From an uncultured Bacteroidales bacterium (GTDB lineage Bacteria > Bacteroidota > Bacteroidia > Bacteroidales > FEN-979): 64,000 nt of DNA. This document shows positions 1,135 through 20,478 of this stretch, piece by piece. Numbering within the stretch: the stretch's first letter is position 1; each line of letters opens with the position of its first letter. The stretch spans positions 62,001 through 126,000 of the forward strand of contig CAIWXI010000098.1 of NCBI GenBank assembly GCA_903916595.1. The letters are read 5' to 3'. The position numbers and the translations under genes were made by a program. Below the pieces are notes generated by a model. That model did not search any database and was not told the DNA's origin. It saw nothing but the letters and a program-made list of their open reading frames with translations.

Positions 1135-1142
1135 TACTTTTG
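1135..1142 (+). promoter_or_regulatory. Putative Bacteroidota -7 box (TActTTTG) upstream of the TPR-like gene
   Basis: TACTTTTG matches TAnnTTTG, 22 nt before ATG 1164. Confidence 0.45.
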
Positions 1143-1163
1143 TCGTCAAACCCCACCGCCAGG

Positions 1164-3842
1164 ATGAGTGTTAACAGATCAATTATCGTAATTTGTTTTA
1201 TATTATATATGGCGTTGCCGGGTTTTACTCAGTCAGAATACAGGTATTCTTCAGGCCTCAGGTCATGGAGATTTCCCTATAAAGCCGACTTCAAACAGAA
1301 GACTAATTACGGTAATGACATCCTTGAGGAGCTGGCCAGGGATTTTCTTAAGCCGCCCCGATTTGTCAATATTACCATTGGTTTCAGAGAAGAAATTTCA
1401 GTGTTGCCCGAGAATCTTTTATCTGTGCTTGCCGTGATCAGGTTCTCTGATTTCAGCTTATCAGGCTATCTTCAGTACCGAAAATTTCCGATGGATGATG
1501 TTCTAATGCCTTCGTCGTTCAGGTTTGAACTTAAAAATGCCACTAAACTTGATACTGATAACGGTACGATTCTGGAGTTTGAAGGTATAGTCCCTTCAGG
1601 AAGCGCCAGCATTGTTTTTAAATTGCCCCGGCTATCTATCGATACGGCTATGGATACATTGATTGCCAGGAACTTCAGATTTATTTATTCTGATTCAGAC
1701 TTTCAGCGTTTTTATGCAAGGAAAAGCCTCATCGATGATTATTATGCCTCTGTGGCAATGCTCGAAAACATGGAGGTTGAAACGCGGAGCTGGGATATGA
1801 GAGACCCCGTGGGAATTCCTCTGAATTTCATCAGGCTTTCGGAACTTGTAAGGATGGTGAACCTCATTAGAAACAGGGAGTTTGGGAACAGTCTGTTACA
1901 GGGAGGGTATGATCCCGGGCATCTTCTTGAAAAACATCTGGCTTTATATAAAATATCAAGAACTTGTTTGTTCAATCTGGCTGAAACACTTGAAAAATCA
2001 GGTGCCCTGAAAGGTTTCATGCCTGCCGATAGTCTTGCATCTTATTTTATGGAACGGCTGATGAGGTACATCAGGCTTGGCGCACTGATGGATAATATTC
2101 AGGGCAGAATATATCAGGATTACTTAAATGCGTTTTATTCAGACCGAGTGTTCGGGAACGAAAGCGATTTTATACAGTCAATGCTGATCCGGATGTTCCC
2201 TGACGCTAAGCCCGACACCTTGCTTTCATGGGCTTCTGAAAACCTGATGAATGCCTACCGGGCAAAAGCAAAGGCATTGATAGCCGGGAAGAAATATTCG
2301 GATGCAGTGCTTCTGATGGAGAATGCTCACAAAATGGCTTTGGTAAACCCGTATCTTAAAAACCATAATGGCTGGGAGGATATGATGTTGGTAGGAGTGA
2401 ATGGGATATTTAATTCCTATGCCGGCATCGCTTCGAGCAGTCTTGAAAGTGGTAGTGTGAATTTTGCCATGGAATACCTTCAGAAAGCAGAAAAATACAT
2501 GGAACTATACCCGGGTTATATAACTTCAGATTCCATATACCGCAGAGTTTACCATTCTATTTTTATCGGGCAACTCGATCATTGCAGCGATCTTCTCGAT
2601 AAGGGGAATTATACCGATGCGCTGGAATGTCTGAACAGCCATGAACAGACATTCTATGGAAAAGCGCTCGAAATGCTGGCTCCCGACATTCTTGATAAAA
2701 AAGAGAAAGCAAGGCTTGGTATCATCATAGATTATACAGAGAGAAGCAGGAAAGCGCTGGTGCATGGTTTTTCCGATAGCGCACTGGTGTATTTCGACAA
2801 GGCAGGCATGATGATAAGTAACACACACGCTGCAGCAGGCGTGAAGCAGAATCTCGATTCACTGGCTCCTGTTATCGCCCGTATCAGGATTAAAAAGATT
2901 AATACACTCGCATCGGCCTATTACAGGCAGAGGCAGTTCCCGAGGGCGATCATTCAGTTTGAGCAGGCGGGAAAAGTTTCAGCAGCATACTCAATTCCTT
3001 CAGATCCTGTTGCTGATTCTTTATATCATCAAGCGTATAAACAATGGCTGCTCGACCGTATCTCGCAGGAGCAGAGGTTTATATGGAGTAACAAACCCGA
3101 TTCGGCGGGAAGTTTCATCTCTCTTGCTTTTGAAACGGCAAAAAGCAAAGGGCTGGCTCAGGATCCGGATATCCTGAATGCAATTTCTCTATACCAGTCA
3201 AGGATAAGTGGTCACTCCTGTGAGACATTGGAAGACAGTCTGGTTGTATTCAATATCAGGGCAGGAAGATGTTTTGCAATACAGAACTTCAACAGGGGCA
3301 CGTGGATCCTCGAGCATGCTATAATTCAGGCAGAAAGAATGTCAAACTGCAATCCCAATATCAATGCGTTGAAGGACTCCCTGAATAAGTATCAGGATGC
3401 TGCAGAGTACCAGAAAAATTTAGAGGAAGTGAATATTGCCATGGTTACAGGGGATTATACAAAAGGCTTGAGATTGCTGGCTGCCAATGAACAAGATTAT
3501 ACTTTAAAACGAATTGATTATTTCGGGATACCGCTTACATCGGTCTACGATTATGTGGCAACCAAGGCAAATCCGTTCATTTCGATACAAGCGCTTGAAT
3601 ATTATCTGAACCAAAATGATCCTGTTGAAGCTTTGCGCTATCTGAAGCTGCTAAATGTTCAGGGCATGCATGATATCCAAACATATAGTTACCAGGAAAA
3701 AACAGCCCGTTCCCTTTCAGTGAGGGATAAACTTGCCAATGCCAATGCTGACCCACAACAGATTGTTCGGCGTTATTCAGCGGCCAACTCCTGGATGAGC
3801 CGATTTACCGAGGTTTATATCAAGGCGTGGGAAAAACTTTAG
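1164..3842 (+). CDS. Secreted protein with TPR-like helical repeats, function unknown
   Basis: 900-aa ORF. ATG at 1164 gives a good signal peptide (MSVNRSIIVICFILYMALPGFTQ). The track's TTG start at 1140 overlaps a predicted -7 box. Repeated helical segments resemble TPRs. Confidence 0.75.
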   Translation: MSVNRSIIVICFILYMALPGFTQSEYRYSSGLRSWRFPYKADFKQKTNYGNDILEELARDFLKPPRFVNITIGFREEISVLPENLLSVLAVIRFSDFSLSGYLQYRKFPMDDVLMPSSFRFELKNATKLDTDNGTILEFEGIVPSGSASIVFKLPRLSIDTAMDTLIARNFRFIYSDSDFQRFYARKSLIDDYYASVAMLENMEVETRSWDMRDPVGIPLNFIRLSELVRMVNLIRNREFGNSLLQGGYDPGHLLEKHLALYKISRTCLFNLAETLEKSGALKGFMPADSLASYFMERLMRYIRLGALMDNIQGRIYQDYLNAFYSDRVFGNESDFIQSMLIRMFPDAKPDTLLSWASENLMNAYRAKAKALIAGKKYSDAVLLMENAHKMALVNPYLKNHNGWEDMMLVGVNGIFNSYAGIASSSLESGSVNFAMEYLQKAEKYMELYPGYITSDSIYRRVYHSIFIGQLDHCSDLLDKGNYTDALECLNSHEQTFYGKALEMLAPDILDKKEKARLGIIIDYTERSRKALVHGFSDSALVYFDKAGMMISNTHAAAGVKQNLDSLAPVIARIRIKKINTLASAYYRQRQFPRAIIQFEQAGKVSAAYSIPSDPVADSLYHQAYKQWLLDRISQEQRFIWSNKPDSAGSFISLAFETAKSKGLAQDPDILNAISLYQSRISGHSCETLEDSLVVFNIRAGRCFAIQNFNRGTWILEHAIIQAERMSNCNPNINALKDSLNKYQDAAEYQKNLEEVNIAMVTGDYTKGLRLLAANEQDYTLKRIDYFGIPLTSVYDYVATKANPFISIQALEYYLNQNDPVEALRYLKLLNVQGMHDIQTYSYQEKTARSLSVRDKLANANADPQQIVRRYSAANSWMSRFTEVYIKAWEKL

Positions 3843-4674: not shown

Positions 4675-6270
4675 TTACTGGCGGAGGACGCGGGCGTGGC
4701 CGGTGGTATTATCTTTGCCGGTGGCTTTGAGCAGATATATGCCCGGGAGCAGGCCTGATGGGTTGATAATACATTGTTTGTCATTGATTTTGTCGAGGAC
4801 GAAGACGCTTCTTCCGGTTAAGTCATAAAGTTCGATCTTGTTGATTTCTGTAAGCCCTTCAATCTTGACTTTTTCGTAGCTGGGATTGGGGTATACTCTC
4901 GAAATCAGGTTTTGGAGATCTGATATACCGACCGCACCCACTGAAGACCTGGTAATGACCCTGACCGGATTGCCAACACGCAGATCGCCGCTGTCGGCCA
5001 CGGGAGTAACTTCAAAAACAAGCCATTGGTGAATTGAGAGAGTATCTATAGTATATGTAATATGTATTGCTGTGTCGATCCGGGTTAGATTAATACCAAG
5101 TGAATCGGAGCTGCGATACCACTGGTAAGTGCTTACGCCTTCGGCGAACCCATTAATGTTTTCATAGGTGTAAACTCCGGAAAGAACCTCTTTGAACACG
5201 CAGACACCTTGAATATCCACATCGTTTGCCATCGGAATGGTTGGGTTTAAGGGGTTCCAGTTATTGAACCATGAATCGTCGGTATTCGGGCCCGAGATGG
5301 TATCGTGCAGAACATAGGTACGGAAGGGTTGGCCCTTCAGTTCGGCGGTAAGCCAGGAGCTGTTGATACGGTATTTAAAACTGATAGGATTCTGACGGTA
5401 ATACGCAGTATCGATCAAGACGGTAGCCGTATAAATACTGTCTTTGTTATCATCATACAGGATATCGTAAGCCCCGTTGCCATTGAATGAACCGGCCACA
5501 TCCACATGATCGGCGTGTCGGCTGAAATGTTTCGCCCAGGTCATGTATTTCATATCGCATGAGAAGGTCATAGGGATCTTCGACGGATTATAATTATTGA
5601 ACCAGTAAAGGGAGTGGATCAGGCTGTCGGGAGCCAGAAGCAGCCTGTTTGGCTTACCTTTCAGTTCGACACCGTTACTGTCTCCATTGATCCTGAATTT
5701 AAATGCAGCTATAAAATCAGGCTCAATATTGTACATGGTCTGGTAAACGTAGCTGGTCCCAATCTGTGTAAAGTGCGGGGAGCCCTGCCAGTTGTTGATG
5801 TTCCCTATCATATCAACATAATCGGTATCGGGTCTGAAAGTATGTTGTTGCACGGGGTAGGACATATCGACCTGGAACCAAGTATAATTGAGGTAAGCAT
5901 TATTCCACCAGCAGGAATAATAATTTATTCCCTGACCTATGAGTATCTGCCGGTCTACAGATTCGGTGATAAAATCATTGATTCTGAATCTGAAATGGCA
6001 GACAGCACCAGAATCAAAACCCTGGGTAAGCATGAGTGTGAATTTGCTGCTGTCTGAGGCCACCAGTTGCTGGTCTTCGATACCGGAGTCGAACACAACA
6101 TAAAGCCGGTCGAGGGAGGGATCGAAAATACCGCTCCTAATCGCTTTAGCCATGTTGACTTCCAGCGAGAGGACAAACACGGTGTCGGCAGCGCCTGATG
6201 CCCGCTGAATTGAGAGCAGGCCTGAGAGCAGGAAAAGGAGGGTAATAGAAAGAATAAGAGATCGTTTCAT
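4675..6270 (-). CDS. Secreted protein with repeated starch-binding-like modules and T9SS C-terminal sorting domain
   Basis: Signal peptide; repeated segments with ...VDMIGNINNWQG.../...VDVAGSFNGNGAYD... and FKFRINGDSNGVELKGKPNR/FKYRINSSWLTAELKGQPFR; C-terminus VYPNPSYEKVKIEGL...IELYDLTGRSV...LPGIYLLKATG. Confidence 0.75.
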   Translation of the reverse strand: MKRSLILSITLLFLLSGLLSIQRASGAADTVFVLSLEVNMAKAIRSGIFDPSLDRLYVVFDSGIEDQQLVASDSSKFTLMLTQGFDSGAVCHFRFRINDFITESVDRQILIGQGINYYSCWWNNAYLNYTWFQVDMSYPVQQHTFRPDTDYVDMIGNINNWQGSPHFTQIGTSYVYQTMYNIEPDFIAAFKFRINGDSNGVELKGKPNRLLLAPDSLIHSLYWFNNYNPSKIPMTFSCDMKYMTWAKHFSRHADHVDVAGSFNGNGAYDILYDDNKDSIYTATVLIDTAYYRQNPISFKYRINSSWLTAELKGQPFRTYVLHDTISGPNTDDSWFNNWNPLNPTIPMANDVDIQGVCVFKEVLSGVYTYENINGFAEGVSTYQWYRSSDSLGINLTRIDTAIHITYTIDTLSIHQWLVFEVTPVADSGDLRVGNPVRVITRSSVGAVGISDLQNLISRVYPNPSYEKVKIEGLTEINKIELYDLTGRSVFVLDKINDKQCIINPSGLLPGIYLLKATGKDNTTGHARVLRQ

Positions 6271-6352: not shown

Positions 6353-9199
6353 TTAAAGAATTATGAATTTACCGCTTGTTGTACCGGCGGGTGTAAGCAG
6401 TTTATAGAAGTACATACCCGGTTTCAGCACTGTCTCGGGATTCCAAAGAAAATCATGAACTCCCTGGGGAAGTCTGCCATCGAATATGATTCCGGCCGGT
6501 CTGCCGCTGAAATCATAAACAAAGAGCTTCACCTGGGTGGTTTGTTCATTCAGAAGTTCGAAGGTTACAGGTCCTTCAGCCGGGTTCGGGAAGACCCTCA
6601 CACGGCAATCTGCTTTGGATGGAACATAAGGATTTTCGATGCCTGTAAAAACAGGTTTCGGGAGCCTCACCGTGGTATATAGCCTGTATTCACCCGGGGT
6701 GAAAGGCAGGGGAGCCGCAATGTTGGTAACATTAAGGGAATCACCGCTGTAATATTCGTACCAGGCACCAGTTTTAGTGAAATTCGGTATCATACTCTGG
6801 GCCACCACATCAAAATTGCCAAGGATCACAGCATCCATTGAGGCATCGGTGAGGGTGATCCGTTTTTTTGCCGCGGAAACATCCATGAGAAAAGACGTGC
6901 TTCTGAAAACCGGAAGATTCTTTTTCAGTTCGGCAAGAGAATGGTATACATTAAATAAATATTTTCTTCCCCACTGCGAATAGTAGTCCCAGCGGATGGG
7001 TTTGGGATCAAGCCTGGAGGCGGATGTGCCTGTGGGGTAGTTAATGGAATAATCGTAGCCCAGCTCTCCGAACTCCCATATCATTTTTGGGCCGGGCATG
7101 GTGAAAAAGAAATTAGCGCAGAGTGCACCACGTTGCAGGGCGGTGGCCGAGTCTTTACAATTATAGGGTGGGGTGTTGGCGTTTCCAAAGCTGTAATCCT
7201 TGAACATCTGTCGTTCTTCATCATGGCTTTCCATATACCATACTATATTAGGCTGGGACCATCCGCGGTTTTTATAGGAACCCCAGGACAGGTCGGAAGC
7301 GCCGCCGCTGTTCCATCCGCCGGAGGCGTTATTATAATTACCGTTTCCGTTGCCCCAGAGCATCATGCCATTATTGGCAAGAACTTTTTCCTCGGTGTTA
7401 TCGGCAAAATGTTCAAGGATCATATATGCTGAAGGGTTTATCGACCATACCGTGTCGGCGTATTGGTTCAGGATGTTGACCCGGTTTTGGTCGTACTGTC
7501 CCCAGAGACTCACGTTGTTTGGATATGAATTGACCTGGGTAAATCCTTTAGATAAGTCGAAACGGTAACCGTCGGCATGATATTCCTGCAACCAGTATTT
7601 CAAGAGACGCAGCATATATAAGCGGGTTGAAGGGCTGTCGTGATTGAAATCGTAGCCCACGTTATATGGATGTTTCGGTATCTGGTTAAACCAGGGGCTG
7701 TTCGCGGCAGGTCGCTGGTTCTCTGCATCCCAGTATAGCTGTACCAGGGGGGAAGCCCCGAAATGATGGTTGCAGACGATGTCGAAAATCACGGCTATGC
7801 CTTTAGCATGGGCTGCTTCGATAAACTGTCTGAGTGTATTTTTCGGACCATAATATTTATCTATGGCAAAGGAATAATCGGGGTTGTAACCCCAGCTTAT
7901 GTTCCCTTCGAATTCCATGATGGGCATCAGTTCGATGGCATTGACTCCGAGGTTTTTCAGGTAGTTGAGAGTATCGATAAGTGACAGGTAGGTATGCTGG
8001 ACGGTAAAATCAGTTATCCACAATTCATAAATAACCAGGTCAGTAACAGCAGGAGGGGTGAAAGTTGAAGTTGACCAGGGGTAGGGTGTTTGTGCGGTCT
8101 GAAGTACTGAAGCGATGCCGGTAGTTTTGCCTGTTGGATAGGGGATAAGGTCGGGATATGTAGCTGGTTCGATATACTGATCGTTGGGGTCGCTTACTTT
8201 GTCGCAGAAGGGATCACCAATACGGAGAGATCCGTCGACCAGGTACTGAAAAATATATTCCTGCCGTGGCGTGAGATTATTAAGCTGTATCCAGAAATCA
8301 TCGCCGCTGGGAGTTTGGAACAAATAATGCAGAGAATCGAGCTCCCAGTTACTAAAGTCACCCAAAGTAAAACAGGACTGCTTGCCGGGTGCGAAAAGGC
8401 GCAAAACGACCGTGGTTGAATCAACATAATTAATACCTTCTTTAACACCTGCAGGCATTGCAGCAATGGTTGGAGAAGGAATTACTGTGTAGCAGAATGA
8501 ATCAGCAGCGGCAGCGGTATCGTTTTTTGCCAGGATTCTAATCCATTGTTTCACCCAGTTCCGCCCAAAATTATTAGACAGAAGGGTATCTGTGATAATA
8601 TGGCCGGCAGTTGTTTTAATGAGCGTACCGTTAAGGAATATCTTCATGCTGTCGGCCAGGGGGCTGGTTGCATTCACCGGAATTGTTTCCAAAGCTTTCA
8701 GGAACAGGTTTTTATTTTGGGGAAGGTTGATTTTAACGCTGGTAACCGTGGGATAAACGTTTGCAAAAACATCACCTCCGTTGGCTTCGCGGCCTGTTTT
8801 AGAACCATCGGAGTTTCTGAACACGAATGCCATCTTCAGAATGCTTTCACCGGCAGGTACGCCGTAAAAGGCTCTTATGCCGGGTTTCATTTTGATGCTG
8901 TAGAGGTTATTGCCCAGGGGGGTCAGCTGTGCCTTGGTCGTATTTTCGCTCCATCCGGCTATCACGTATTTCCAATCAGAGGGGGAAGTACTCAGGTTAG
9001 TGATCACACCGGTATGGGCGTAGATAGGAGGCGCCACGTTCATAAGCCCGGCGTCACCCTGGCTTGCGTCGAAAATAAGGGTACATGAATCGATGTCGGT
9101 TGGGTAGAATGGGATTGTTACAACGACCTGAGCCGAAGCTATTGAATAAATGAAAACGGAAAGGAAGAGAAGAAGGATGGAAACAATGGGCCTTTTCAT
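6353..9199 (-). CDS. Secreted GH13 alpha-amylase family enzyme with N-terminal E-set domain and T9SS C-terminal domain
   Basis: GH13 motifs DGYRFDLSKGF, ILEHFADN, ESHDEER; signal peptide; C-term RVFPNPAEGPVTFELL...VYDFSGRPAG...LKPGMYFYKLLT. Confidence 0.93.
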   Translation of the reverse strand: MKRPIVSILLLFLSVFIYSIASAQVVVTIPFYPTDIDSCTLIFDASQGDAGLMNVAPPIYAHTGVITNLSTSPSDWKYVIAGWSENTTKAQLTPLGNNLYSIKMKPGIRAFYGVPAGESILKMAFVFRNSDGSKTGREANGGDVFANVYPTVTSVKINLPQNKNLFLKALETIPVNATSPLADSMKIFLNGTLIKTTAGHIITDTLLSNNFGRNWVKQWIRILAKNDTAAAADSFCYTVIPSPTIAAMPAGVKEGINYVDSTTVVLRLFAPGKQSCFTLGDFSNWELDSLHYLFQTPSGDDFWIQLNNLTPRQEYIFQYLVDGSLRIGDPFCDKVSDPNDQYIEPATYPDLIPYPTGKTTGIASVLQTAQTPYPWSTSTFTPPAVTDLVIYELWITDFTVQHTYLSLIDTLNYLKNLGVNAIELMPIMEFEGNISWGYNPDYSFAIDKYYGPKNTLRQFIEAAHAKGIAVIFDIVCNHHFGASPLVQLYWDAENQRPAANSPWFNQIPKHPYNVGYDFNHDSPSTRLYMLRLLKYWLQEYHADGYRFDLSKGFTQVNSYPNNVSLWGQYDQNRVNILNQYADTVWSINPSAYMILEHFADNTEEKVLANNGMMLWGNGNGNYNNASGGWNSGGASDLSWGSYKNRGWSQPNIVWYMESHDEERQMFKDYSFGNANTPPYNCKDSATALQRGALCANFFFTMPGPKMIWEFGELGYDYSINYPTGTSASRLDPKPIRWDYYSQWGRKYLFNVYHSLAELKKNLPVFRSTSFLMDVSAAKKRITLTDASMDAVILGNFDVVAQSMIPNFTKTGAWYEYYSGDSLNVTNIAAPLPFTPGEYRLYTTVRLPKPVFTGIENPYVPSKADCRVRVFPNPAEGPVTFELLNEQTTQVKLFVYDFSGRPAGIIFDGRLPQGVHDFLWNPETVLKPGMYFYKLLTPAGTTSGKFIIL

Positions 9200-9478: not shown

Positions 9479-12463
9479 ATGAAGAAACGTGTACTTTGGT
9501 TGCGTTATCTGATTCTTTTCTTCGCCCTGGCATCAGCTTCGATAGCTAATGCCCAGGAGATCACGGTTTCGGGTAAAGTGACAGATGCGACGGATGGAAG
9601 TTTACTTCCGGGGGTGACTATCGCTGTTAAAAACACTACAACGGGTACGGTTACCGACGCTGACGGAAAATTTTCCATCAAGGTGAAAAAGGATGCAGTG
9701 CTTGTTTTTTCCTATGTCGGTTATCAGGCGCAGGAAATCACAGTCACCGAACAGAAGAATCTCGAAATTTCTCTTTCGGTAGGCACTAAAAGTCTTAATG
9801 AAATAGTGGTGATTGGATACGGCTCGGTGAAAAAGCAGGATGCTACCGGGGCTGTTGCCGCCATCAGCCAGAAAGATTTTAACCTTGGCGCTATTTCATC
9901 TCCACAGCAACTGATTGTTGGTAAAATTGCCGGCGTTCAGGTTACCACTACCGGTGGTGCTCCGGGCGGCGACGCTATCATCCGTATCAGGGGCGGTTCT
10001 TCAATCAATGCAAACAATGATCCTTTACTCGTTGTTGATGGTGTTGCCATCGATAATGCTTCTACTTCAGGCGCCCGCAGTACGCTGGGTATGCTGAACC
10101 CGGATGACATAGAGACCTATACCATTTTGAAAGATGCTTCCGCTACAGCTATTTACGGTTCGCGTGCATCCAACGGGGTTATCATCATCACCACGAAAAA
10201 AGGGGTTGCAGGCACAAAGAAAGTCGGTGTTGAATACTCAGGCAATTTATCGGTATACACTGTTCCTAAGATGATCAGTGTATATAACGGCGATGATTTC
10301 CGCACATTAGCCAGAACACGTTATCCGGGCCGTCAGGATGTTGATACTCTTTTAGGCAAGGAAAGCACCGATTGGCAAAAACAAATCTACAGAACTGCTG
10401 TGGGAACCGATCAGAACCTTGCTATCACAGGGGCTATCGCTACCATGCCTTATCGTTTATCGCTGGGTTATTATTACCAGGATGGTACCTTAAAGACCGA
10501 TAATATGCGTAGGACCACCGTGGGCTTAAATCTGAATCCGACGTTTTTCAAGAATTACCTCAAGCTGACGGTTAACGCGAAGTACATGTTTGAAAAAAAC
10601 AGGTTTGCCGACCAGTCTGCAATCGGGGATGCTGTTTCTTTTGACCCGACACAGGCTGTAACGGCCGGAGGAAAATATGGTTTGTATGGAGGCTACTGGG
10701 CCTGGCTGCAACCCAACAATACTCCTGTTACCCAGGCAACAACCAACCCTCTTGCAAGGCTTGAGCTTACTAAAAATACATCTTCGGTAAACAGGTTCCT
10801 TGGGAATGCAATGATCGATTATAAACTGCATTTTTTTCCAGACCTGAGGGTTAACCTTAACCTCGGTATGGATTATTCATGGAGCAAGGGGAATAATTAT
10901 GTTCCGACCTGGGCAACATGGCAGTACACCAACAAGGGCGTAAACAGCACTTACGATCAGACCAAAAAGAACAGCCTGCTCGACTTTTATCTAAATTATG
11001 TAAAAGAAGTGAAGAGCATTGCCAGCAAATTCGATGTGATGGCCGGTTATTCATGGCAGCATTTCTGGGTCAACAATAATAATTACAATAGCAATGTGCC
11101 TCATGATTCAGCACATGTCGACACGGTTATCGTGAAACAGGAGATGTATCTCGTGTCGTTTTACGGCCGTTTCAATTATTCTTTCAAAAACAGGTATCTG
11201 TTAACAGCGACACTTCGTGATGACGGTTCATCGAGATTTTCAAAGAGCACCCGCTGGGGTCTTTTCCCCTCGGTTGCACTCGGATGGAAGATCAACGAAG
11301 AAAAGTTCCTCAGGGATTCCAAAGTTGTTTCACAGCTGAAGCTCAGGATGGGCTGGGGGCAGACCGGTCAGCAGGATATTTCGAGCAACTGGTATCCTTA
11401 CATGCCTATTTATACGCTGGGCGACGGTTACTCAATGTATCAGTTTGGTAATTCATGGTACCGCACATTGCGCCCCGATGCTTATGATCCCAATATCAAA
11501 TGGGAGACAACCACAACGTGGAACGTCGGTATCGACATGGGCTTCCTTAAAGACAGGATCACTGCTTCGGTCGATTATTACTATAAAAACACCAACGACA
11601 TGCTGAACTTCATTCCTGTACCTGCAGGGACCAACCTTTCAAATTACGTTTGGACCAACGTAGGGAGCATGAATAACAAGGGTTTTGAATTCACACTGGA
11701 TGTGAAACCCATTGTGAATAAAAACTGGACCTGGGATATCGGTTTCAATGCCACTACATACCAGAACAAGATCACAAAACTCAACATCTCCGATGACCCC
11801 AGCTATCCCGGTATTATGGTGGGTGGTATCAGCGGCGGTGTTGGTAATACCGTGCAGATACAGAGAGTTGGAAATCCCATCAATTCATTCTACGTTTTCC
11901 AGCAGGTGTACGATGCCAGCGGGAATCCAGTAGAAGGATTGTACGTTGACAGGAATGGCGACGGCAAGATCACCGACGCTGACAGGTATTGTGATCATAG
12001 CCCGAATCCAGACTTTACTTTTGGATTGAACACCAGGCTTGACTATAAAAAATGGTCTTTAGCAGCCAGCGGCCACGCCAACTTCGGCAATTACATGTAC
12101 AATAACGTGGAAGCCAACAGGGGGGTGTATGCCAATATCTTCCGCCCTGAAGGACCCTATCTCGGCAACGTTGCCACCTCAGTTACAAATACTGGCTTCG
12201 TGAATCAGCAGTACCTGTCGGACTACTATGTACAGGCTGCTTCCTTTTTTAAGCTGGATTACCTCTCCCTGGCCTATAATTTCGGGAACCTTGTAAAGAA
12301 CACACTGAATCTCCGTATTTCATTCACGGTAAACAACGTGTTCACGATCACCAACTACAAGGGTCTTGATCCTGAAGTGAACCTCGGTTCAAGCTTAGGT
12401 ATAGATAATAATATGTATCCGAGATCCAGGGTGTATGTTCTGGGTGTTAATCTATCGTTGTAA
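9479..12463 (+). CDS. susC: SusC/RagA family TonB-linked outer membrane protein
   Basis: CarboxypepD_reg-like N-terminus (VSGKVTDATDGSLLPGVTIAVKNTTTGTVTDADGKFSI), plug motif, RGGSSINANNDPLLVVDGVAI, ASATAIYGSRASNGVIIITTKKG. Confidence 0.97.
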   Translation: MKKRVLWLRYLILFFALASASIANAQEITVSGKVTDATDGSLLPGVTIAVKNTTTGTVTDADGKFSIKVKKDAVLVFSYVGYQAQEITVTEQKNLEISLSVGTKSLNEIVVIGYGSVKKQDATGAVAAISQKDFNLGAISSPQQLIVGKIAGVQVTTTGGAPGGDAIIRIRGGSSINANNDPLLVVDGVAIDNASTSGARSTLGMLNPDDIETYTILKDASATAIYGSRASNGVIIITTKKGVAGTKKVGVEYSGNLSVYTVPKMISVYNGDDFRTLARTRYPGRQDVDTLLGKESTDWQKQIYRTAVGTDQNLAITGAIATMPYRLSLGYYYQDGTLKTDNMRRTTVGLNLNPTFFKNYLKLTVNAKYMFEKNRFADQSAIGDAVSFDPTQAVTAGGKYGLYGGYWAWLQPNNTPVTQATTNPLARLELTKNTSSVNRFLGNAMIDYKLHFFPDLRVNLNLGMDYSWSKGNNYVPTWATWQYTNKGVNSTYDQTKKNSLLDFYLNYVKEVKSIASKFDVMAGYSWQHFWVNNNNYNSNVPHDSAHVDTVIVKQEMYLVSFYGRFNYSFKNRYLLTATLRDDGSSRFSKSTRWGLFPSVALGWKINEEKFLRDSKVVSQLKLRMGWGQTGQQDISSNWYPYMPIYTLGDGYSMYQFGNSWYRTLRPDAYDPNIKWETTTTWNVGIDMGFLKDRITASVDYYYKNTNDMLNFIPVPAGTNLSNYVWTNVGSMNNKGFEFTLDVKPIVNKNWTWDIGFNATTYQNKITKLNISDDPSYPGIMVGGISGGVGNTVQIQRVGNPINSFYVFQQVYDASGNPVEGLYVDRNGDGKITDADRYCDHSPNPDFTFGLNTRLDYKKWSLAASGHANFGNYMYNNVEANRGVYANIFRPEGPYLGNVATSVTNTGFVNQQYLSDYYVQAASFFKLDYLSLAYNFGNLVKNTLNLRISFTVNNVFTITNYKGLDPEVNLGSSLGIDNNMYPRSRVYVLGVNLSL

Positions 12464-12480: not shown

Positions 12481-14673
12481 ATGAAACGAATATTTAAAAT
12501 AACATTCATTATAACAGCATTAGGGCTGTTTTTAGCCTCCTGCACTAAGGATCTGAACACTTTACCGATCAATCCGAAGTCATTGCTCCCGGCCAATGTA
12601 TATACATCAGCAGCAGGGTACAAGCAGGTACTGGCAAAATGCTATGCAGGCCTTTCAGTATCGGGCCAGCAGGGCCCCGCAGGGAATCCCGATATCGCCG
12701 GGATCGATGAAGGGTTCGGCGAATATCTCCGTGGCTACTGGTATCACCAGGAGCTTACTACCGACGAAGCCTTGATTGGATGGAATGACCAGACGATCAA
12801 GAATTTCCATTTCCAGACCTGGGGCTCAGGCGATGTGTTTATTGCAGCTATGTATTACAGGATTTTTTATCAGATAAGCCTTTGCAATGAGTTCATCAGA
12901 GAGTCGCAGGACAGCAAACTTGACGAGCGCGGAATCACTGGACAGGACAAAGTAAATGTTCAGATGTTTCGTACAGAAGCCCGTTACCTGAGAGCGTTAA
13001 GTTATTACCATGCACTTGACCTCTTTGCCAATGTACCATTTGTAACTGAAGCCGATCCTCCCGGTAAATTTTTCCCTCAGCAGATAAACCGTGCAGATCT
13101 CTTCAAATACATAGAAAATGAACTTCTGGCGATAGCACCTTCAATGGTTGCAGCAAGAGCAAATGAATACGGCCGTGCAGACCAGGGCGCTGGCTGGATG
13201 CTGTTAGCCAAACTGTATCTCAATGCAGAAGTTTATACCGGCACTCAGAGGTATACCGATTGTCTTACCTACTGCAATAATGTTATTAATGCAGGGTACA
13301 CTCTTGAGCCCAAGTACAAGGATCTTTTCCTGGCCGATAACTATAGAAGCCAGGAGATCATTTTCCCTATCGAATTCAATGGCAACACAACCCGTACCTG
13401 GGGTGGAACGACCTTCATTATTTGTGCAGGCGTTGGTGGCAGCATGGTTCCTGCAGCCTCCGGGATTGCCGGTGGCTGGGGCGGAACACGTACAACAAGA
13501 CCGATCGTGGAGCTGTTTTATCCTAATATCAAAGACGGTTTGTACCAATCACCCACCCCCCCCAAGAATACGAATGCATATCCAATCCTGAATTGCCCGG
13601 GATCATACCAGGGCTGGAATCCGGCCGATCCGAACAATGTTGTGGCTTCAGTGGCAAGCGATGGTAAATATGAAGGATATCTGTATTTCAAAAGTTCGAA
13701 TGTGGAGTTTAAATTTGCTGCAGGTTCATGGGCGGTTAACTGGGGTGACGGTGGAAATGGAACCCTGCTTCATGGCGGAGCAAATATTAAAGTTCCGACT
13801 CCTGGTTATTTTAAAGTCAATTGCGATACAGTTGGCAGTACTTTCACAGTTGTCAAAACTGAATGGGGGCTGATCGGAGATGCTACTCCGGGCGGCTGGG
13901 ATACAGATACGCCCATGGCTTATGATACCACTACCAAGACATGGACTGTTACAGTCGATCTCAAGGGAGGAAAAACCTTTAAATTCCGCGCAAACAGCAG
14001 CTGGGATATAAATTATGGAGGAGAAAACGGCATCCTCACCGCTGGTGGCGCAAACATCAGTATTCCCGAAGATGGCAGTTATCTCATTACGATGAAACTC
14101 GGTTGTCCAGACTATACTTATTCCGTGTTCAGGTACAGCTATGACAGAAGGGCTATGTTCTGGAGCGACGGGCAGTCACTCGACATCAACGATGTTGCAG
14201 TGTTCACCGATGGATATGCTGTTAACAAGTTCAAGAACATCAATAGCGACGGGTCTCCCGGATCTAACCTTACATATTGTGATCCAGACTTCCCGCTGTT
14301 CAGGCTTGGCGATGTCTATCTGATGTATGCCGAAGCTGTCCTCAGGGGCGGTGGTGGCGGAAGTCAGGCTCAGGCTCTCAACTATGTTAACGCGCTGCGT
14401 TTAAGGGCATGGGGCGATGAGAAGGGTTACATTACTGCTGCTGACCTGACCCTGCTCTTTATTCTTGGAGAAAGAGGTCGCGAACTATACTGGGAAGGTC
14501 ACCGCAGAACCGACCTGATCCGTTACGGCATGTTCACTACAGGCGATTATGCCTGGCCATGGAAAGGCGGGATAAAAGAGGGTATCAAAACACAAAGTTT
14601 TTATAACATCTTCCCCATCCCTTCATCCGACGTATCTGCAAATCCCAATCTCAGACAAAATACCGGATATTAA
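12481..14673 (+). CDS. susD: SusD/RagB family lipoprotein with internal SusE/F-like starch-binding insertion
   Basis: Lipobox LFLASC; SusD features (RTEARYLRALSYYHALDLFANVPFVTE, LGDVYLMYAEAVLRGG, FILGERGRELYWEGHRRTDLIRYG). Residues ~360-552 (NCPGSYQGWNP...TYSVFRYS) match the downstream SusE-like protein. Confidence 0.95.
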   Translation: MKRIFKITFIITALGLFLASCTKDLNTLPINPKSLLPANVYTSAAGYKQVLAKCYAGLSVSGQQGPAGNPDIAGIDEGFGEYLRGYWYHQELTTDEALIGWNDQTIKNFHFQTWGSGDVFIAAMYYRIFYQISLCNEFIRESQDSKLDERGITGQDKVNVQMFRTEARYLRALSYYHALDLFANVPFVTEADPPGKFFPQQINRADLFKYIENELLAIAPSMVAARANEYGRADQGAGWMLLAKLYLNAEVYTGTQRYTDCLTYCNNVINAGYTLEPKYKDLFLADNYRSQEIIFPIEFNGNTTRTWGGTTFIICAGVGGSMVPAASGIAGGWGGTRTTRPIVELFYPNIKDGLYQSPTPPKNTNAYPILNCPGSYQGWNPADPNNVVASVASDGKYEGYLYFKSSNVEFKFAAGSWAVNWGDGGNGTLLHGGANIKVPTPGYFKVNCDTVGSTFTVVKTEWGLIGDATPGGWDTDTPMAYDTTTKTWTVTVDLKGGKTFKFRANSSWDINYGGENGILTAGGANISIPEDGSYLITMKLGCPDYTYSVFRYSYDRRAMFWSDGQSLDINDVAVFTDGYAVNKFKNINSDGSPGSNLTYCDPDFPLFRLGDVYLMYAEAVLRGGGGGSQAQALNYVNALRLRAWGDEKGYITAADLTLLFILGERGRELYWEGHRRTDLIRYGMFTTGDYAWPWKGGIKEGIKTQSFYNIFPIPSSDVSANPNLRQNTGY
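13560..14136 (+). other. In-frame SusE/F-like starch-binding domain insertion within SusD
   Basis: PGSYQGWNPAD..GKYEGYLYF..VEFKF..NWGDGGNGTLLHGGANIK..WGLIGDATPGGWDTDTPMAYDTTTKTWTVTVDL..KFRANSSWDINYGG.. is co-linear with SusE residues encoded at ~15169-15729. Confidence 0.85.
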
Positions 14674-14694: not shown

Positions 14695-15732
14695 ATGAAA
14701 AAAATAACAATATTAATCCTGGTCCTTGGTCTGTTTAGCTTCCTTTCATGCACAAAGGATCAGACCAAAGCCACACTCAGCTCAAACCCGCAGGCTTCGG
14801 TGTTAAACCTGGCGAGCGGGTCTGTGGTGCTTCAGAAGGCTGATGCAGCAAAGCTAATTACATACAGATGGTCGAAATCAAATTTCGGCCAGGCTGTTGT
14901 CATTAACTATTTACTTCAGATGGATGATGCCGGAAATAATTTTAAGGCTGCCGTTACTGTCGGTCAGGTTAATAATCTGGATTCTTTGCAGGTTATAACC
15001 GCCGATCTGAACATGAAAGTCCTGGTGAAGGAGTTTGATCCTACGCAACCCGCACCAATCGCTCTTGAGTTCAGGATTCAGGCTGTGATCAATGCCAATG
15101 TGGATCCCCTGAATTCTGATCCGGTAGCAGTCTCCATCACTCCATACTTTGTGAAAATTGTTTATCCTTTGCTGGGTGTACCTGGAAGCTATCAGGGGTG
15201 GAATCCTGGAGATTCAATCACAACCATTGCTTCTTTGAAATCGAACGGACAATATGAAGGCTATATGTATTTCAACGCCGAAGCCGTGGAATTCAAATAT
15301 ACACAGGGTCCTTCATGGGACAACAACTGGGGTGATGATGGTGCTGATGGTACTCTTAATCCGGGCGGAGCTAACATCAAAGCCGGAGCAATGGGATACT
15401 ACAAACTGAACGTAGACCTTCCCGGTCTGACCCACAGGTTCCTTTTGACTAACTGGGCTGTTATTGGTGATGCAACTCCGGGTGGCTGGGATGCTGGTAC
15501 TCCTATGACTTATGATGAGACATCAAAGACGTGGACTGTAACTCTTGCTCTTACCCAGGCTAACATTAAGTTCCGTGCAAACGATTCATGGGATCTTAAC
15601 TATGGCGATACCGGAGGAGACGGGAATCTCGAAGAAAATGGTGATAATATTGCAGTGCCAGGCGCCGGCAATTATACTATTATCATGGATCTGAGCAAAC
15701 CGATATATAAATACAAACTGACGAAAAATTAG
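14695..15732 (+). CDS. susE: SusE-like outer membrane starch-binding lipoprotein
   Basis: Lipobox FLSC; N-terminal SusE-like domain; two C-terminal starch-binding-like modules (PGSYQGWNPG, GDATPGGWDAGTPM). Confidence 0.9.
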   Translation: MKKITILILVLGLFSFLSCTKDQTKATLSSNPQASVLNLASGSVVLQKADAAKLITYRWSKSNFGQAVVINYLLQMDDAGNNFKAAVTVGQVNNLDSLQVITADLNMKVLVKEFDPTQPAPIALEFRIQAVINANVDPLNSDPVAVSITPYFVKIVYPLLGVPGSYQGWNPGDSITTIASLKSNGQYEGYMYFNAEAVEFKYTQGPSWDNNWGDDGADGTLNPGGANIKAGAMGYYKLNVDLPGLTHRFLLTNWAVIGDATPGGWDAGTPMTYDETSKTWTVTLALTQANIKFRANDSWDLNYGDTGGDGNLEENGDNIAVPGAGNYTIIMDLSKPIYKYKLTKN

Positions 15733-15806: not shown

Positions 15807-18509
15807 TTACTGTTTCACTGGCGTAAGCAGGAATTCGAGCGGGATATTCAGGCGTTTAGCCCATGACTTTTCCGAATGGTTCTCTCCTTTAAATTCCCTG
15901 CTCATCCAGCTTTCTGAAGTATAGCCTGAGGAGCTCATGATGGCATCGGCCTGGAGCTGGAAAGGTTTGTACATACTGTCGAGGGTCTGGTCACCGTAAT
16001 CGAAATAGATCTTGTGAGTGGAGGGATCTGGGAGGTGACGGCTCAGGTACTTCATAAAGGCATCAGGAATGGGGTTGTTCTGGGTAGTCCAGGTACCCGG
16101 CCAGTGAGTTGAGATGCAGGCAGCTCCTCCAAACACTTTGGGGTATTCGCAGATGGCATACATGCTGATCAACCCGCCCATGCTGGAACCGGCAATGAAC
16201 GTATTGCCCGGGTCGGGTAAAGTTGAGAAAGTGCTGTCGATAAATGGTTTCAGCTCTTTCACAAGAAATTTCAGGTAGAGGTCTGATTGCACATCAGCGG
16301 CAAAGAGTGACTGATCTTTGTTCCGCGTTGAGGAGTAGATTGCCTGTTGCTGTTCCAGGGTGAGAGATTCAAAAGGTTTCTGGGGAAAATACTCAGAATG
16401 CCTCATTTGGCCTCCGTTGGAAACACCCACCACGATACAGTCGCGAATCTTTTTCTGTTTTATCAGTAGTCCTGCTATTTCATCGACACACCATTCCTGG
16501 TGGTTCCATGTAGATGAGCTGTCGAAAAGCATCTGCCCATCATTCATATATAATACAGCATATTTTTTCGAAGGAGAATAGCCGTCGGGGAGCCAGATGT
16601 CGATATTCCTGGGAGCGACAAAGTCTGAAGGGAAGGCCTCAAAATGTCTTACCGAGCCTGATGAAACTTTTGCCGGCATCATAAGAATCATTCCGCTAAA
16701 GGGATTTAAAACAACGCTGTTTCCTTTGATCACCGTATTGCTAAGGATATCGGTGCAGCCTGAAATGCCGGGCATGATAAAGGTCTGAGGGTTTGAGCCT
16801 GCGTTGATCAGGACGATCATTTGAGAATTTTTATCAAATCGTTTATAAGCCAGTTTACTGCCATCCGCCATCAGAAATTCAAATTTCCCGCTGTTCAACA
16901 CAGTATGGGATTTTCGTATCCTGATCAGTTTTTTGTAAAAGTTAAACTGCTGCTGGTTGAAGCCGACCGAATCGTAGATTTTAAGCCCCGGCTGGTAGTT
17001 GTTCCTATATTCCGGATCAAATGAATATTCCTTCCACCACAAAGGTTTTCGGCAATCGGGATCATCTTCGCCCCACATGCCCATCTCTTCGCCGTTCCAG
17101 ATCTGGGGGGCGCCCACGGTCGTGAACAGCCATACAAGGTAAAGCCTCATACGTTTATACGTTTCAGCATCGGGTTTCCCGGTCCTGTATGAAGAGTCAT
17201 CCCGCGGAAGGGCATTGACCTTGTATTTGTTTGTGTTATAAAAATCGGTCAGCAGGCGTGGAGCGTCGTGGGAAGAAGAAACGTTCATCATGGCATAGAG
17301 ATTTTCGGGCCTCAGCCGGTTCCACTGTAGTTCGATGCTATCGCGGAATTGCTTTGCATCGATCGGGAACTTCGTTTTTGCGAAGAAATACCTTGCAGGA
17401 CGGTAAACCTGGTAAAACATCACGGCATCAAACACATCGCCTTTGGTGTAGGGCGCAGGATCCATAAGCACATCCGGCCATTTTTCCCACCATATCTCTC
17501 CGATCATGTAAGCATCGGGTTGGACCGAGATCACGAATTTTCTCCAGTCGCGCCAGAACACCATACCAATCTGGTCTGCCACATCCATCCTGAATCCATC
17601 AATTCCTTTCGTATTATCGCCATCCGAGGCCAGCCAGCGTTTGGTGACTGCGAAAATATGCTGCTTGGCCCCCGCGTTCAGATCTCCTTCATAAGGATGT
17701 CCGTATTCTCTTTTGGTTGTGATATTCACCTTTTTAAACTCCGGCAGACTTTCGATCCCGACCCAGCCGCGGTATTTGAATTCATTTTCAGGAGTGGCAG
17801 GATCGTCAAACGAAATGATGTCGTACCAGTCTTTATAAGCCGAGGCCGATTGTTTTTTGAGAATATCCTGCCAGGCCCAGAACATCACTCCGGTATGATT
17901 CCAGGAGAAATCGAGGATCACTTTCATACCCCGTTTATGAGCCTCTGCAACGACTTTTAGAAATAATTTGTCGGCGGATGTCCATTTCCATGTAGCCGTA
18001 TCGGCGGGGTTTTCAAGAGCGATGATGCGCTTGTCGCCTTCGGGGTCGGGACCGAAATTTACATCCACATGATGGTAGCTGCGGGCATCGTATTTATGCA
18101 GGGAAGGTGCGTCGTTGATGGGATTGATATACAGGGCTGTGATGCCCAGGTCTTTTAAATAATCAAGCTTGTCGAGGACCCCCTGAAGGTCGCCCCCGAA
18201 CCTTCGGTACTGAAGGTTATCCATAAAGGGCTTGCCCGTGGCTTTGGCCCAGTTTTCCTGTTCGAACCAGTTATGGGTCCAGGCTGTGACCGACCAGGCG
18301 GGAGGTGCGATCTGCCTGAGAGGAGGAATGTTGATCTCGTCTGGTTTGGGATCATTGGTTTTATCGCCGTTATTGAAACGTTCCACAAAGATCTGGTACC
18401 ACACGGCTGATTGTGCCCAAAAAGGGGGCTGATCAAAGGGTATTTTGGCGGTTTGAGGGTATGCAGCTGCCTGCCAGAGCAACAGCCCTGCAATAAGAAT
18501 TTTTTTCAT
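15807..18509 (-). CDS. GH13 alpha-amylase fused to a C-terminal esterase domain (PF00756-like)
   Basis: Start MKKILIAGLLLWQAAAYPQ (track start is 19 aa upstream). GH13 motifs GFRMDVADQ, MIGEIWWE, SSHDAPR; C-term RNIDIWLPDGYSPSKKYAVLYMNDGQMLFD...GSSMGGLISMYA. Confidence 0.92.
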   Translation of the reverse strand: MKKILIAGLLLWQAAAYPQTAKIPFDQPPFWAQSAVWYQIFVERFNNGDKTNDPKPDEINIPPLRQIAPPAWSVTAWTHNWFEQENWAKATGKPFMDNLQYRRFGGDLQGVLDKLDYLKDLGITALYINPINDAPSLHKYDARSYHHVDVNFGPDPEGDKRIIALENPADTATWKWTSADKLFLKVVAEAHKRGMKVILDFSWNHTGVMFWAWQDILKKQSASAYKDWYDIISFDDPATPENEFKYRGWVGIESLPEFKKVNITTKREYGHPYEGDLNAGAKQHIFAVTKRWLASDGDNTKGIDGFRMDVADQIGMVFWRDWRKFVISVQPDAYMIGEIWWEKWPDVLMDPAPYTKGDVFDAVMFYQVYRPARYFFAKTKFPIDAKQFRDSIELQWNRLRPENLYAMMNVSSSHDAPRLLTDFYNTNKYKVNALPRDDSSYRTGKPDAETYKRMRLYLVWLFTTVGAPQIWNGEEMGMWGEDDPDCRKPLWWKEYSFDPEYRNNYQPGLKIYDSVGFNQQQFNFYKKLIRIRKSHTVLNSGKFEFLMADGSKLAYKRFDKNSQMIVLINAGSNPQTFIMPGISGCTDILSNTVIKGNSVVLNPFSGMILMMPAKVSSGSVRHFEAFPSDFVAPRNIDIWLPDGYSPSKKYAVLYMNDGQMLFDSSSTWNHQEWCVDEIAGLLIKQKKIRDCIVVGVSNGGQMRHSEYFPQKPFESLTLEQQQAIYSSTRNKDQSLFAADVQSDLYLKFLVKELKPFIDSTFSTLPDPGNTFIAGSSMGGLISMYAICEYPKVFGGAACISTHWPGTWTTQNNPIPDAFMKYLSRHLPDPSTHKIYFDYGDQTLDSMYKPFQLQADAIMSSSGYTSESWMSREFKGENHSEKSWAKRLNIPLEFLLTPVKQ

Positions 18510-18510
18510 A

Positions 18511-20478
18511 TTACTGGTCTTCGGATTTCGGTTTGAAAGTAAGCTGGCGTAAGATCGTCTGCCCAAGGGGAAGCAGGATTACCGCTTCGTTTTTATGGCT
18601 GACAGGATTATAGAGACTGGTTGCAAACTCTGCTTTTTTCTGATTCGTTTGCTTCACCGGTTCATCGGCATACTCCAGTATACTTAGACCGGAGGGCCTG
18701 TATTGCATATCCCTGAATCCTTTCAATGGATAAGTCTTTGTTTGTCTCCCGATACTCTGGATGGGACGGGCCAGGACCAGGGCCCCGTAGGTGAAGTAAT
18801 ACTCCTTGTTCAGATCCTGTTTAAGCTCGATTTCGGGAAAGAACTGAATCGTAATAGGATGCTCTCCCTTCCACCGCCTTTGAATTACGATATACCCTTT
18901 ATCTTCTATATATACTTCGCTTACACTGACTTTTTTTGCCCAGCCGGGCTTCCTGATTTTAATTGTGAAATATGAGTCCTCGGTATTGATCACAAACGTA
19001 ATCGAGTTATCGTAGGGATAAGCAGTCTGTTCATCGATAAGCACTTTCTTGCCTCTCACTTTGGTTTCCACTTCGCATGGCCCCAGAAGGGTGGCCACAA
19101 GGCCCTGTTCATCTTTCATCCACATGTTCTGAACATAATACGGGGCGATACGTCCGGCGTTAGGCACGCAGCATACAGCTACATCCTGGTGAACGGGGGA
19201 GTATTTGTAGCGGGTCTGGGTTTTCACTGTTGTATCGCCGTTCAGGCCGCCACACATGGAGTAGGAGTTATCGGTTTTAAGATAGGCAATTGAACTTTCA
19301 AAAGGATTTCTTGCGCCCTGGGCGGCATTGAAGAATAGAGTTTCGGTTAGATCGCCAAAATGAGCATCTCCGGTTTTACCCAGAAGGCTTGTATAACTGT
19401 TCAGAAGTTCATGCAATGAGCAATACTCGTATCCCCGCCCCGTGGCATCTGCTTTACCACCTGCTATCCATTCATCGCCCACAGGTCCTCCTGAAGGGCT
19501 TATACAAAGGTTGATCTTATAAAGAAAATTCTGCAGCACGGTTCCAAGAGCAGGGTTCCCCGAGGCATAGAAGGCAGCAGCCACAGAACGGAGATGCTCG
19601 TATGTATGAACTCCGTGGCTTTTCAGCATCAGGGACGTATCGGCCAGCTTGCTGTATTGTGCATCCTCATTCAGCTTCTGTTCCGAAAAATCCCTGTAAA
19701 GAAAAATGCAGTAATCCCTGTATTCCTGCTTCCCCGTTATCCGCCATAATTCCTCAAGTACATCGGTAAAGGCCAGGCCGTGGGTGATGCCACCGGCATC
19801 GGGGTTGACCGAATAAAATGGATGAGAAGTATATGGCGGATAGTTGACCATGACATCATGCACGGCTGCTTCGATGGTCTTCAGGACCTGGTAGTCGCGG
19901 GTGAATTCGTACCAGGCGATCAAACCCCTGAGCAGAGTGGTTTTAGACCAAAGCTCACCATTCTCATTGTCGAAGCGGTAACGTAAGTCGCTATCATAGA
20001 TCCCAAGGTATCCGTTTGTATCCTGTGTGGCCAGTATTCTTTGCATATATTTTGTTGCTCTTGCAAGGTGATCCTGGTCACCGCTTAAGATTGCCGACCG
20101 AAGATACCCGTCGCGCCAGTTACTCTGGGTCTCAGAGTTCCACCAGAGGAACTGGGCCTGCAACTCACCGTTTTCGGTGATAGCACCCACGTCTTTTGAT
20201 TTGACATGCCTGCCAAGCCTGTTACGGCCGTAAATGTCGTCGCGAAGGATCAGATCAGGAACCAGGGAGTCGAGATGGCCGGTGAACCCGTTCAGGTTTT
20301 CCTGGATTTGTTCCCGTATCCAGCCCGAAGGGAGAATTTCAAAAAGAGGCAAGGGCTGGAAGGTTTCCGGGATGCTCCCTGTCTTACGGAATACATTGTT
20401 CTCCTGGGCTTCTGATTTATTAATCGTCATCAGCACACAAAAAAACATTAAAATTATGCATGCTGAAATCTGTTTCAT
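18511..20478 (-). CDS. GH127-like (DUF1680 / beta-L-arabinofuranosidase family) protein
   Basis: Signal peptide; GWIREQIQENLNGFTGHLD, GYLGIY, HGLAFTDVLEELWRITG, E-Y-C (GYEYCSLHELL) and CC (VAVCCVPNAGRIAPYY) motifs of the family. Confidence 0.85.
   Translation of the reverse strand: MKQISACIILMFFCVLMTINKSEAQENNVFRKTGSIPETFQPLPLFEILPSGWIREQIQENLNGFTGHLDSLVPDLILRDDIYGRNRLGRHVKSKDVGAITENGELQAQFLWWNSETQSNWRDGYLRSAILSGDQDHLARATKYMQRILATQDTNGYLGIYDSDLRYRFDNENGELWSKTTLLRGLIAWYEFTRDYQVLKTIEAAVHDVMVNYPPYTSHPFYSVNPDAGGITHGLAFTDVLEELWRITGKQEYRDYCIFLYRDFSEQKLNEDAQYSKLADTSLMLKSHGVHTYEHLRSVAAAFYASGNPALGTVLQNFLYKINLCISPSGGPVGDEWIAGGKADATGRGYEYCSLHELLNSYTSLLGKTGDAHFGDLTETLFFNAAQGARNPFESSIAYLKTDNSYSMCGGLNGDTTVKTQTRYKYSPVHQDVAVCCVPNAGRIAPYYVQNMWMKDEQGLVATLLGPCEVETKVRGKKVLIDEQTAYPYDNSITFVINTEDSYFTIKIRKPGWAKKVSVSEVYIEDKGYIVIQRRWKGEHPITIQFFPEIELKQDLNKEYYFTYGALVLARPIQSIGRQTKTYPLKGFRDMQYRPSGLSILEYADEPVKQTNQKKAEFATSLYNPVSHKNEAVILLPLGQTILRQLTFKPKSEDQ

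Follow-up and report, generated by a model that had tools for sequence, protein, structure and literature searches.

The stretch of DNA that we analysed (the window, 64,000 nucleotides from an uncultured Bacteroidales bacterium) contains a starch-type polysaccharide locus in the order susC-susD-susE, all on the + strand, whose SusD protein is interrupted by a long additional block. What this block is, where it came from and what it might do on the lid of a transporter are the questions raised by the locus. The susC and susD genes are separated by 17 bases, and no susF gene follows susE in the operon. After susE, the opposite strand carries GH13 enzymes together with an MFS sugar transporter and further genes, and the GH13 enzymes and the transporter fit with the use of alpha-glucans. 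The genes and gene parts are given below.

9479..12463, + strand: SusC/RagA-type TonB-dependent transporter, 994 aa (TIGR04056, 790.7 bits, above cut-off)
12481..13539, + strand: SusD core, N-terminal part, residues 1-353, with predicted lipoprotein signal C21, TPR core and R84/W101/W307/W333; NF033071 and 3jys/3ck7 matches end at about residue 346-352
13540..13578, + strand: linker into the insertion, residues 354-366; columns missing from insert-less relatives in the 28-SusD alignment
13579..13857, + strand: inserted X25/SusE-type domain 1, residues 367-459, with W379, K411 and W417 (homology to SusE, fold models, Foldseek, conservation)
13858..14133, + strand: inserted X25/SusE-type domain 2, residues 460-551, with W473, K501 and W508 (PF16411, PF22058, homology, fold models, Foldseek)
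14134..14673, + strand: SusD core, C-terminal part, residues 552-730 with stop (PF07980 SusD_RagB at 565-730, E 1.6e-32)
14695..15732, + strand: SusE-like lipoprotein, 345 aa, with the PF14292 N-terminal SusE domain (21-123) and a pair of X25-type domains (156-345; 15160-15729), the homologues of the insertion

The susD gene (12481-14673, + strand) is one uninterrupted frame of 730 aa with no internal stops. Pfam and PDB matches to SusD end at about residue 346-352 and restart at about residue 553-565, with a SusF_SusE match (PF16411, E 1.7e-14) between them, and solved SusDs align with it only over residues 35-352 and 553-730. The insertion is about 198 residues long, is in frame and occupies residues 354-551 (about 13540-14133 with linkers). 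Thus, the open frame and the split profile matches bear out the original prediction of an in-frame insertion in a 730-aa SusD, and the coordinates given there (13560-14136) were correct within a few codons. Its figure of about 500-600 aa for a typical SusD was fair, although the PDB already contains SusDs expanded in other ways to about 600-640 aa (7bll, 5cjz, 7nek), and the length of 730 aa is therefore unremarkable by itself. The host protein scored 113.8 bits against PF07980 (cut-off 23.1), while NF033071 reached 425.6 bits in two stretches, below its strict exception cut-off of 725; it belongs to the SusD/RagB family but not to the narrow NF033071 model. A lipobox-type Cys21 was invariant in the alignment of 28 SusDs, predicting a lipoprotein. 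Foldseek matched the core fold to 3jys (E 1e-30) and 3ck9 (E 2e-26), with TM values of 0.76-0.78 by target length.

R84, W101, W307 and W333 of the core align with R81, W98, Y296 and W320 of Bacteroides thetaiotaomicron SusD, which, with the residue offset set by the alignment, we take to be its starch contacts. R84, W101 and W333 were found in 34/34 two-domain SusDs, and position 307 was aromatic in all 34. The insertion starts 20 residues past W333, in a loop whose length varies naturally: by alignment it has about 39 residues in B. thetaiotaomicron SusD and about 14 in 3jys. The SusDs of B. thetaiotaomicron (3ck7-3ckc) and B. vulgatus (3jys) hence have the core fold, the family and the starch-site Arg and aromatic positions in common with the window SusD, but unlike it they have no X25 domain at this point.

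The full-length SusD was modelled by AlphaFold2 with 28 relatives, and the insert formed two beta-sandwich domains with pLDDT means of mostly 80-95 in 10-residue blocks. The model was weak near the insertion and the starch-site loops (pLDDT <50 at residues 303-339, 349-354 and 558-585), and it does not predict how the insert is oriented relative to the lid. Modelled alone with 43 insert and SusE sequences, the insert again gave two beta-sandwiches with a pLDDT of 96.2. Its top four Foldseek matches in the PDB were Sca5 X25-2, SusE with maltoheptaose, SusE with cyclodextrin and SusF (E 4e-6 to 3e-5), and the fifth was far weaker (E 5e-2). The model and the SusE/SusF matches at about 1e-5 confirmed the proposed separate SusE/F-type beta-sandwich domains. 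A PDB sequence search with the insert alone gave weak matches to BT3088 only, and the likeness to SusE/SusF came from profile and fold searches.

The neighbouring SusE was the closest comparison within the locus. The insert shared 54% identity over 190 aa with SusE residues 156-344, with the same domain order (E 5e-65), which agrees with the earlier statement that it is homologous to and co-linear with the C-terminal half of SusE. At the DNA level, only two ungapped blocks could be aligned, with 73% identity (104 nt, 13858-13961 versus 15448-15551) and 77% identity (30 nt). The insert alone passed the profile cut-offs of PF16411 (60.8 bits, cut-off 27.5) and PF22058 (30.3 bits, cut-off 27). 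PF14292 matched the adjoining SusE gene and not the SusD protein; the insert corresponds to the pair of SusE modules, with the N-terminal domain of SusE missing, and its host is not a SusE. The protein is a genuine SusD, and its insert is built from genuine X25 modules of the SusE type. SusE and SusF of B. thetaiotaomicron (4fch, 4fem, 4fe9), among the closest solved folds, carry a similar tandem of X25-type domains with Trp-Lys-Trp sets, but they are separate lipoproteins, whereas the window tandem lies inside the SusD lid.

A Trp-Lys-Trp set is present in both inserted domains (W379/K411/W417 and W473/K501/W508), and among 32 inserts it was conserved in 29-30 for domain 1 and in 31-32 for domain 2. 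Profile alignment to SusF brought the conserved W, K and W into register, with the domain-1 set falling on chain residues W272, K308 and W315. With an offset of 15 these become W287, K323 and W330, presumably part of a SusF starch site. The inserted domain 1 of two genomes (G064 and G160; loci L035 and L036) lacks the set and is nevertheless retained, while domain 2 keeps it. X25 modules have been described with a two-Trp platform and a match to SusF, and tandem X25s build a four-Trp platform for maltooligosaccharides (PMC9112005). Both Trp pairs of the insert, W379/W417 and W473/W508, are conserved. The best Foldseek match, X25-2 of the Ruminococcus bromii Sca5/Sas20 proteins (7rpy, PMC9112005), has two tandem X25s with two Trp per module; those proteins are Gram-positive amylosome scaffolds, whereas the insert sits in the lid of a TonB transporter.

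The block occurs well beyond the window. A public-genome scan returned 31 loci. In 26 of them SusD carries this two-domain insertion, one of these SusDs being truncated at the edge of its contig, and a SusE comes next in every case; matches in Bacteroidales MAGs were mostly 65-76% identical and those in Saprospiraceae/Chitinophagales MAGs mostly 53-57% (best segment). The proposed search of SusD homologues thus recovered the block at the same site in Bacteroidales and Saprospiraceae. Relatives without it were found in Hymenobacter, Rikenella, Odoribacter laneus and one Muribaculaceae MAG. Among sampled genomes, the two-domain form was present in 8/8 of the window's genus, 20/44 of its family (its own genome counted) and 18/395 of its order, where one matched only from query residue 45 onward; G064 and G160 belong to another family. 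Three genomes in the window's own family (G806, G796 and G812; loci L105-L107) encode insert-less SusDs of 530-537 aa that nest inside the two-domain clade. In these three loci a divergent, longer SusE follows (378-394 aa), as if the susD insert and the susE type had changed together.

Single inserted domains were found at the same core point in other families. In family f25, which lies outside the window's class, a single first-type domain was present in the SusDs (about 640-670 aa) of eight genomes, and within genus g88 of this family insert-bearing and insert-less SusDs stand side by side; in family f7, three genomes encode SusDs of 623-637 aa that hold a single second-type domain. Furthermore, one Bacteroidales MAG (L031:4531-8721) contains a 1397-aa frame with a SusE-type X25 pair (58% identity to the window SusE) and with Fn3 and Lcl_C matches, and the family search gave a counterpart of 1398 aa in G805.

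The original prediction had taken the insertion for a recent capture of the neighbouring module, and this part did not hold. The window insert was 61-70% identical to inserts of the nearest other species versus 54-55% to its own SusE. In pair trees, 25 inserts and 28 SusE pairs split cleanly in 98% of bootstrap trees (99/93), and in a larger tree of 32 two-domain inserts and 59 SusE pairs the inserts formed one group in 93% (91/90, unstarred), so that the suggested comparison placed inserts with inserts, apart from SusE. The pair trees rule out recent duplication of, or gene conversion with, the neighbouring susE, and identical junctions in dozens of independent assemblies, one of them a 2-contig genome, rule out an assembly chimera. 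We give next to no credence to a recent event or chimera in one genome, since the homologous block in the neighbouring gene, which speaks for it, is outweighed by the shared junctions and by the greater likeness to inserts of other species.

Because the pair trees separate the inserts from SusE, the two-domain insertion is old and most simply of single origin rather than a recent copy of the neighbour. As judged from these alignments, common ancestry of the two-domain inserts is established, and the tandem most likely arose from one of SusE type, at a time before the sampled Bacteroidales and Saprospiraceae lineages diverged or before one passed it to the other. A core tree built without the insert by a quick method gave 8 changes between bearing and lacking the insertion, of which 6 were forced by well-supported branches. 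The position of G796, G806 and G812 within the two-domain clade means that at least one loss of the insertion took place close to the window.

Whether every insert descends from one event was then weighed with the single-domain forms. The second-type inserts of f7 grouped with f7's own three-domain SusE (98/96), and the AU test rejected a union with the two-domain inserts (p 0.03); the first-type inserts of f25 grouped with SusE domain 1 of their own family (90/85), and forcing them together with the two-domain inserts cost 38-40 log units, which was not significant (AU p 0.065 and 0.088). All of these tests rest on about 95 columns, with groups named after earlier trees had been seen. Domain-by-domain trees of the same length did not place the two-domain inserts firmly, and a free 111-row tree scattered the domain-1 inserts; holding the two-domain inserts together was not rejected for domain 1 (p 0.57 and 0.12) or domain 2 (p 0.41). 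The single-domain inserts of the two other families were probably separate captures, as far as the trees indicate. A single ancestral two-domain insertion, with single-domain and insert-less forms as partial or complete losses and no repeated capture, would explain why every form occupies the same site and why the two-domain inserts form one group, and the three nested insert-less genomes show that loss does happen; the grouping of both single types with the SusE of their own family, the rejected union of the second type and the cost of the other make it rather unlikely. Because other families hold single SusE-type domains in the loop and some relatives lost the insert, this loop has probably served as an acceptor site more than once. 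We tentatively extend this, at somewhat less than even confidence, to a loop behind the SusD starch site that serves as an evolutionary socket, with at least three uptakes of SusE-type X25 modules from the own operon (the Bacteroidales/Saprospiraceae tandem, the first-domain type in one family and the second-domain type in another), by which a self-carried glycan-binding protein would couple capture to lid movement without a separate SusF.

Selection on the insert was assessed in pairs of near relatives. The dN/dS values were 0.03-0.17 for the insert and 0.02-0.11 for the core, placing the insert within or slightly above the core range. The insert is under purifying selection and is a working part of the SusD protein. 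Tolerated ballast without a role in glycan uptake is very improbable in view of these values and of platform residues conserved across large divergence, even though the close relatives L105-L107 lack the insert with no visible damage to SusD.

SusD acts as a hinged lid over SusC, with oligosaccharides bound at the SusCD interface, and surface glycan-binding proteins (SGBPs) such as SusE/SusF take polysaccharide from outside (PMC7782687, PMC7618045). Our preferred reading, which we consider likely, is a starch-type SusD with a tandem of two X25-type starch-binding modules of SusE-type origin in the loop just after W333, forming a lid-borne glycan-binding unit that partly does the work of SusE/SusF in cis. 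From the conserved platforms we infer that both modules would bind malto-oligosaccharides or starch; the insert plausibly adds glucan sites to SusD, as originally proposed, and most likely gives the moving SusC lid an additional surface for binding alpha-glucan. The two modules would bind alpha-glucan as the lid's own surface glycan-binding unit and may hold a chain at the mouth of the transporter, which could increase avidity, or the local glucan concentration, at the starch site of the lid itself; the tandem would thereby do in cis part of the job that SusE/SusF do in trans. With susF missing from the operon, the insert may take the place of SusF, although the relative L019 encodes, besides an insert-bearing SusD, another X25 protein with several domains. 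Close relatives do without the insert, which counts against its role as a glycan-binding unit.

The main rival is that the inserted domains mainly dock or space, tethering a partner (SusE, a surface amylase or the dimer's second SusCD) to the lid, with glycan binding secondary. X25 modules taken singly do not always bind (PMC9112005), and SusE reportedly promotes uptake independently of starch binding (title of Foley 2018, cited in PMC7782687); a docking role is possible on these grounds. Levan and dextran utilisomes dock an SGBP and a GH on SusC loops, so that partner contacts near the lid exist (PMC7618045). The cooperation of SusE/SusF/SusG with SusCD in the starch system seems unlike that in these utilisomes, as PMC7618045 remarks. 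Domain 1 without its triad in G064 and G160 also favours docking, but the near-invariance of the triad in the other inserts, which docking would not need, leaves this explanation unlikely, and we keep to a lid-borne glycan-binding unit.

No description of a SusD with inserted SusE-type domains was found in the open full-text literature searched; the 'additional domain' of PMC11093988 and the 'insertion' of PMC10316084 do not describe one. Of the objection that the block might be common and already described, the first half stands for the window's family (20/44) and the second found no backing in the papers searched. SusG with CBM58 in its B domain (PMC11267923) is likewise a Sus protein with an inserted starch-binding module, but its host is an amylase and CBM58 is another CBM family. 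The 'looped' and 'open' alpha-glucan SusDs of marine Flavobacteriia (PMC11093988) vary in a loop near the starch site in connection with the presence of a SusE-like gene, and the 'looped' form has a loop of about 17 residues, not an inserted domain. With SGBP modules fused into the SusD lid, geometry and stoichiometry are fixed by nature, and the insert-less close relatives, whose N-terminal core is 71-74% identical, offer a ready natural comparison. Annotation rules of the kind used in PMC8636109, in which PF07980 defines SusD and PF16411 defines SusE/F, would label the protein as both.

Several neighbouring genes were also observed. Upstream of the locus, a 900-aa frame (1140-3839, + strand) gave no Pfam match at 1e-5. 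On the - strand, 15807-18566 is a 919-aa single frame with a GH13 alpha-amylase and a C-terminal putative esterase domain (PF00128 + PF00756), and 18514-20478 is a GH127-like gene (beta-L-arabinofuranosidase family) within an otherwise alpha-glucan locus. The neighbouring proteins encoded at 4675-6270 and 6353-9199 (both - strand) have type IX secretion tails, one being a GH13 and the other having weak CBM48 similarity, and are possibly a secreted amylase and its starch-binding partner.
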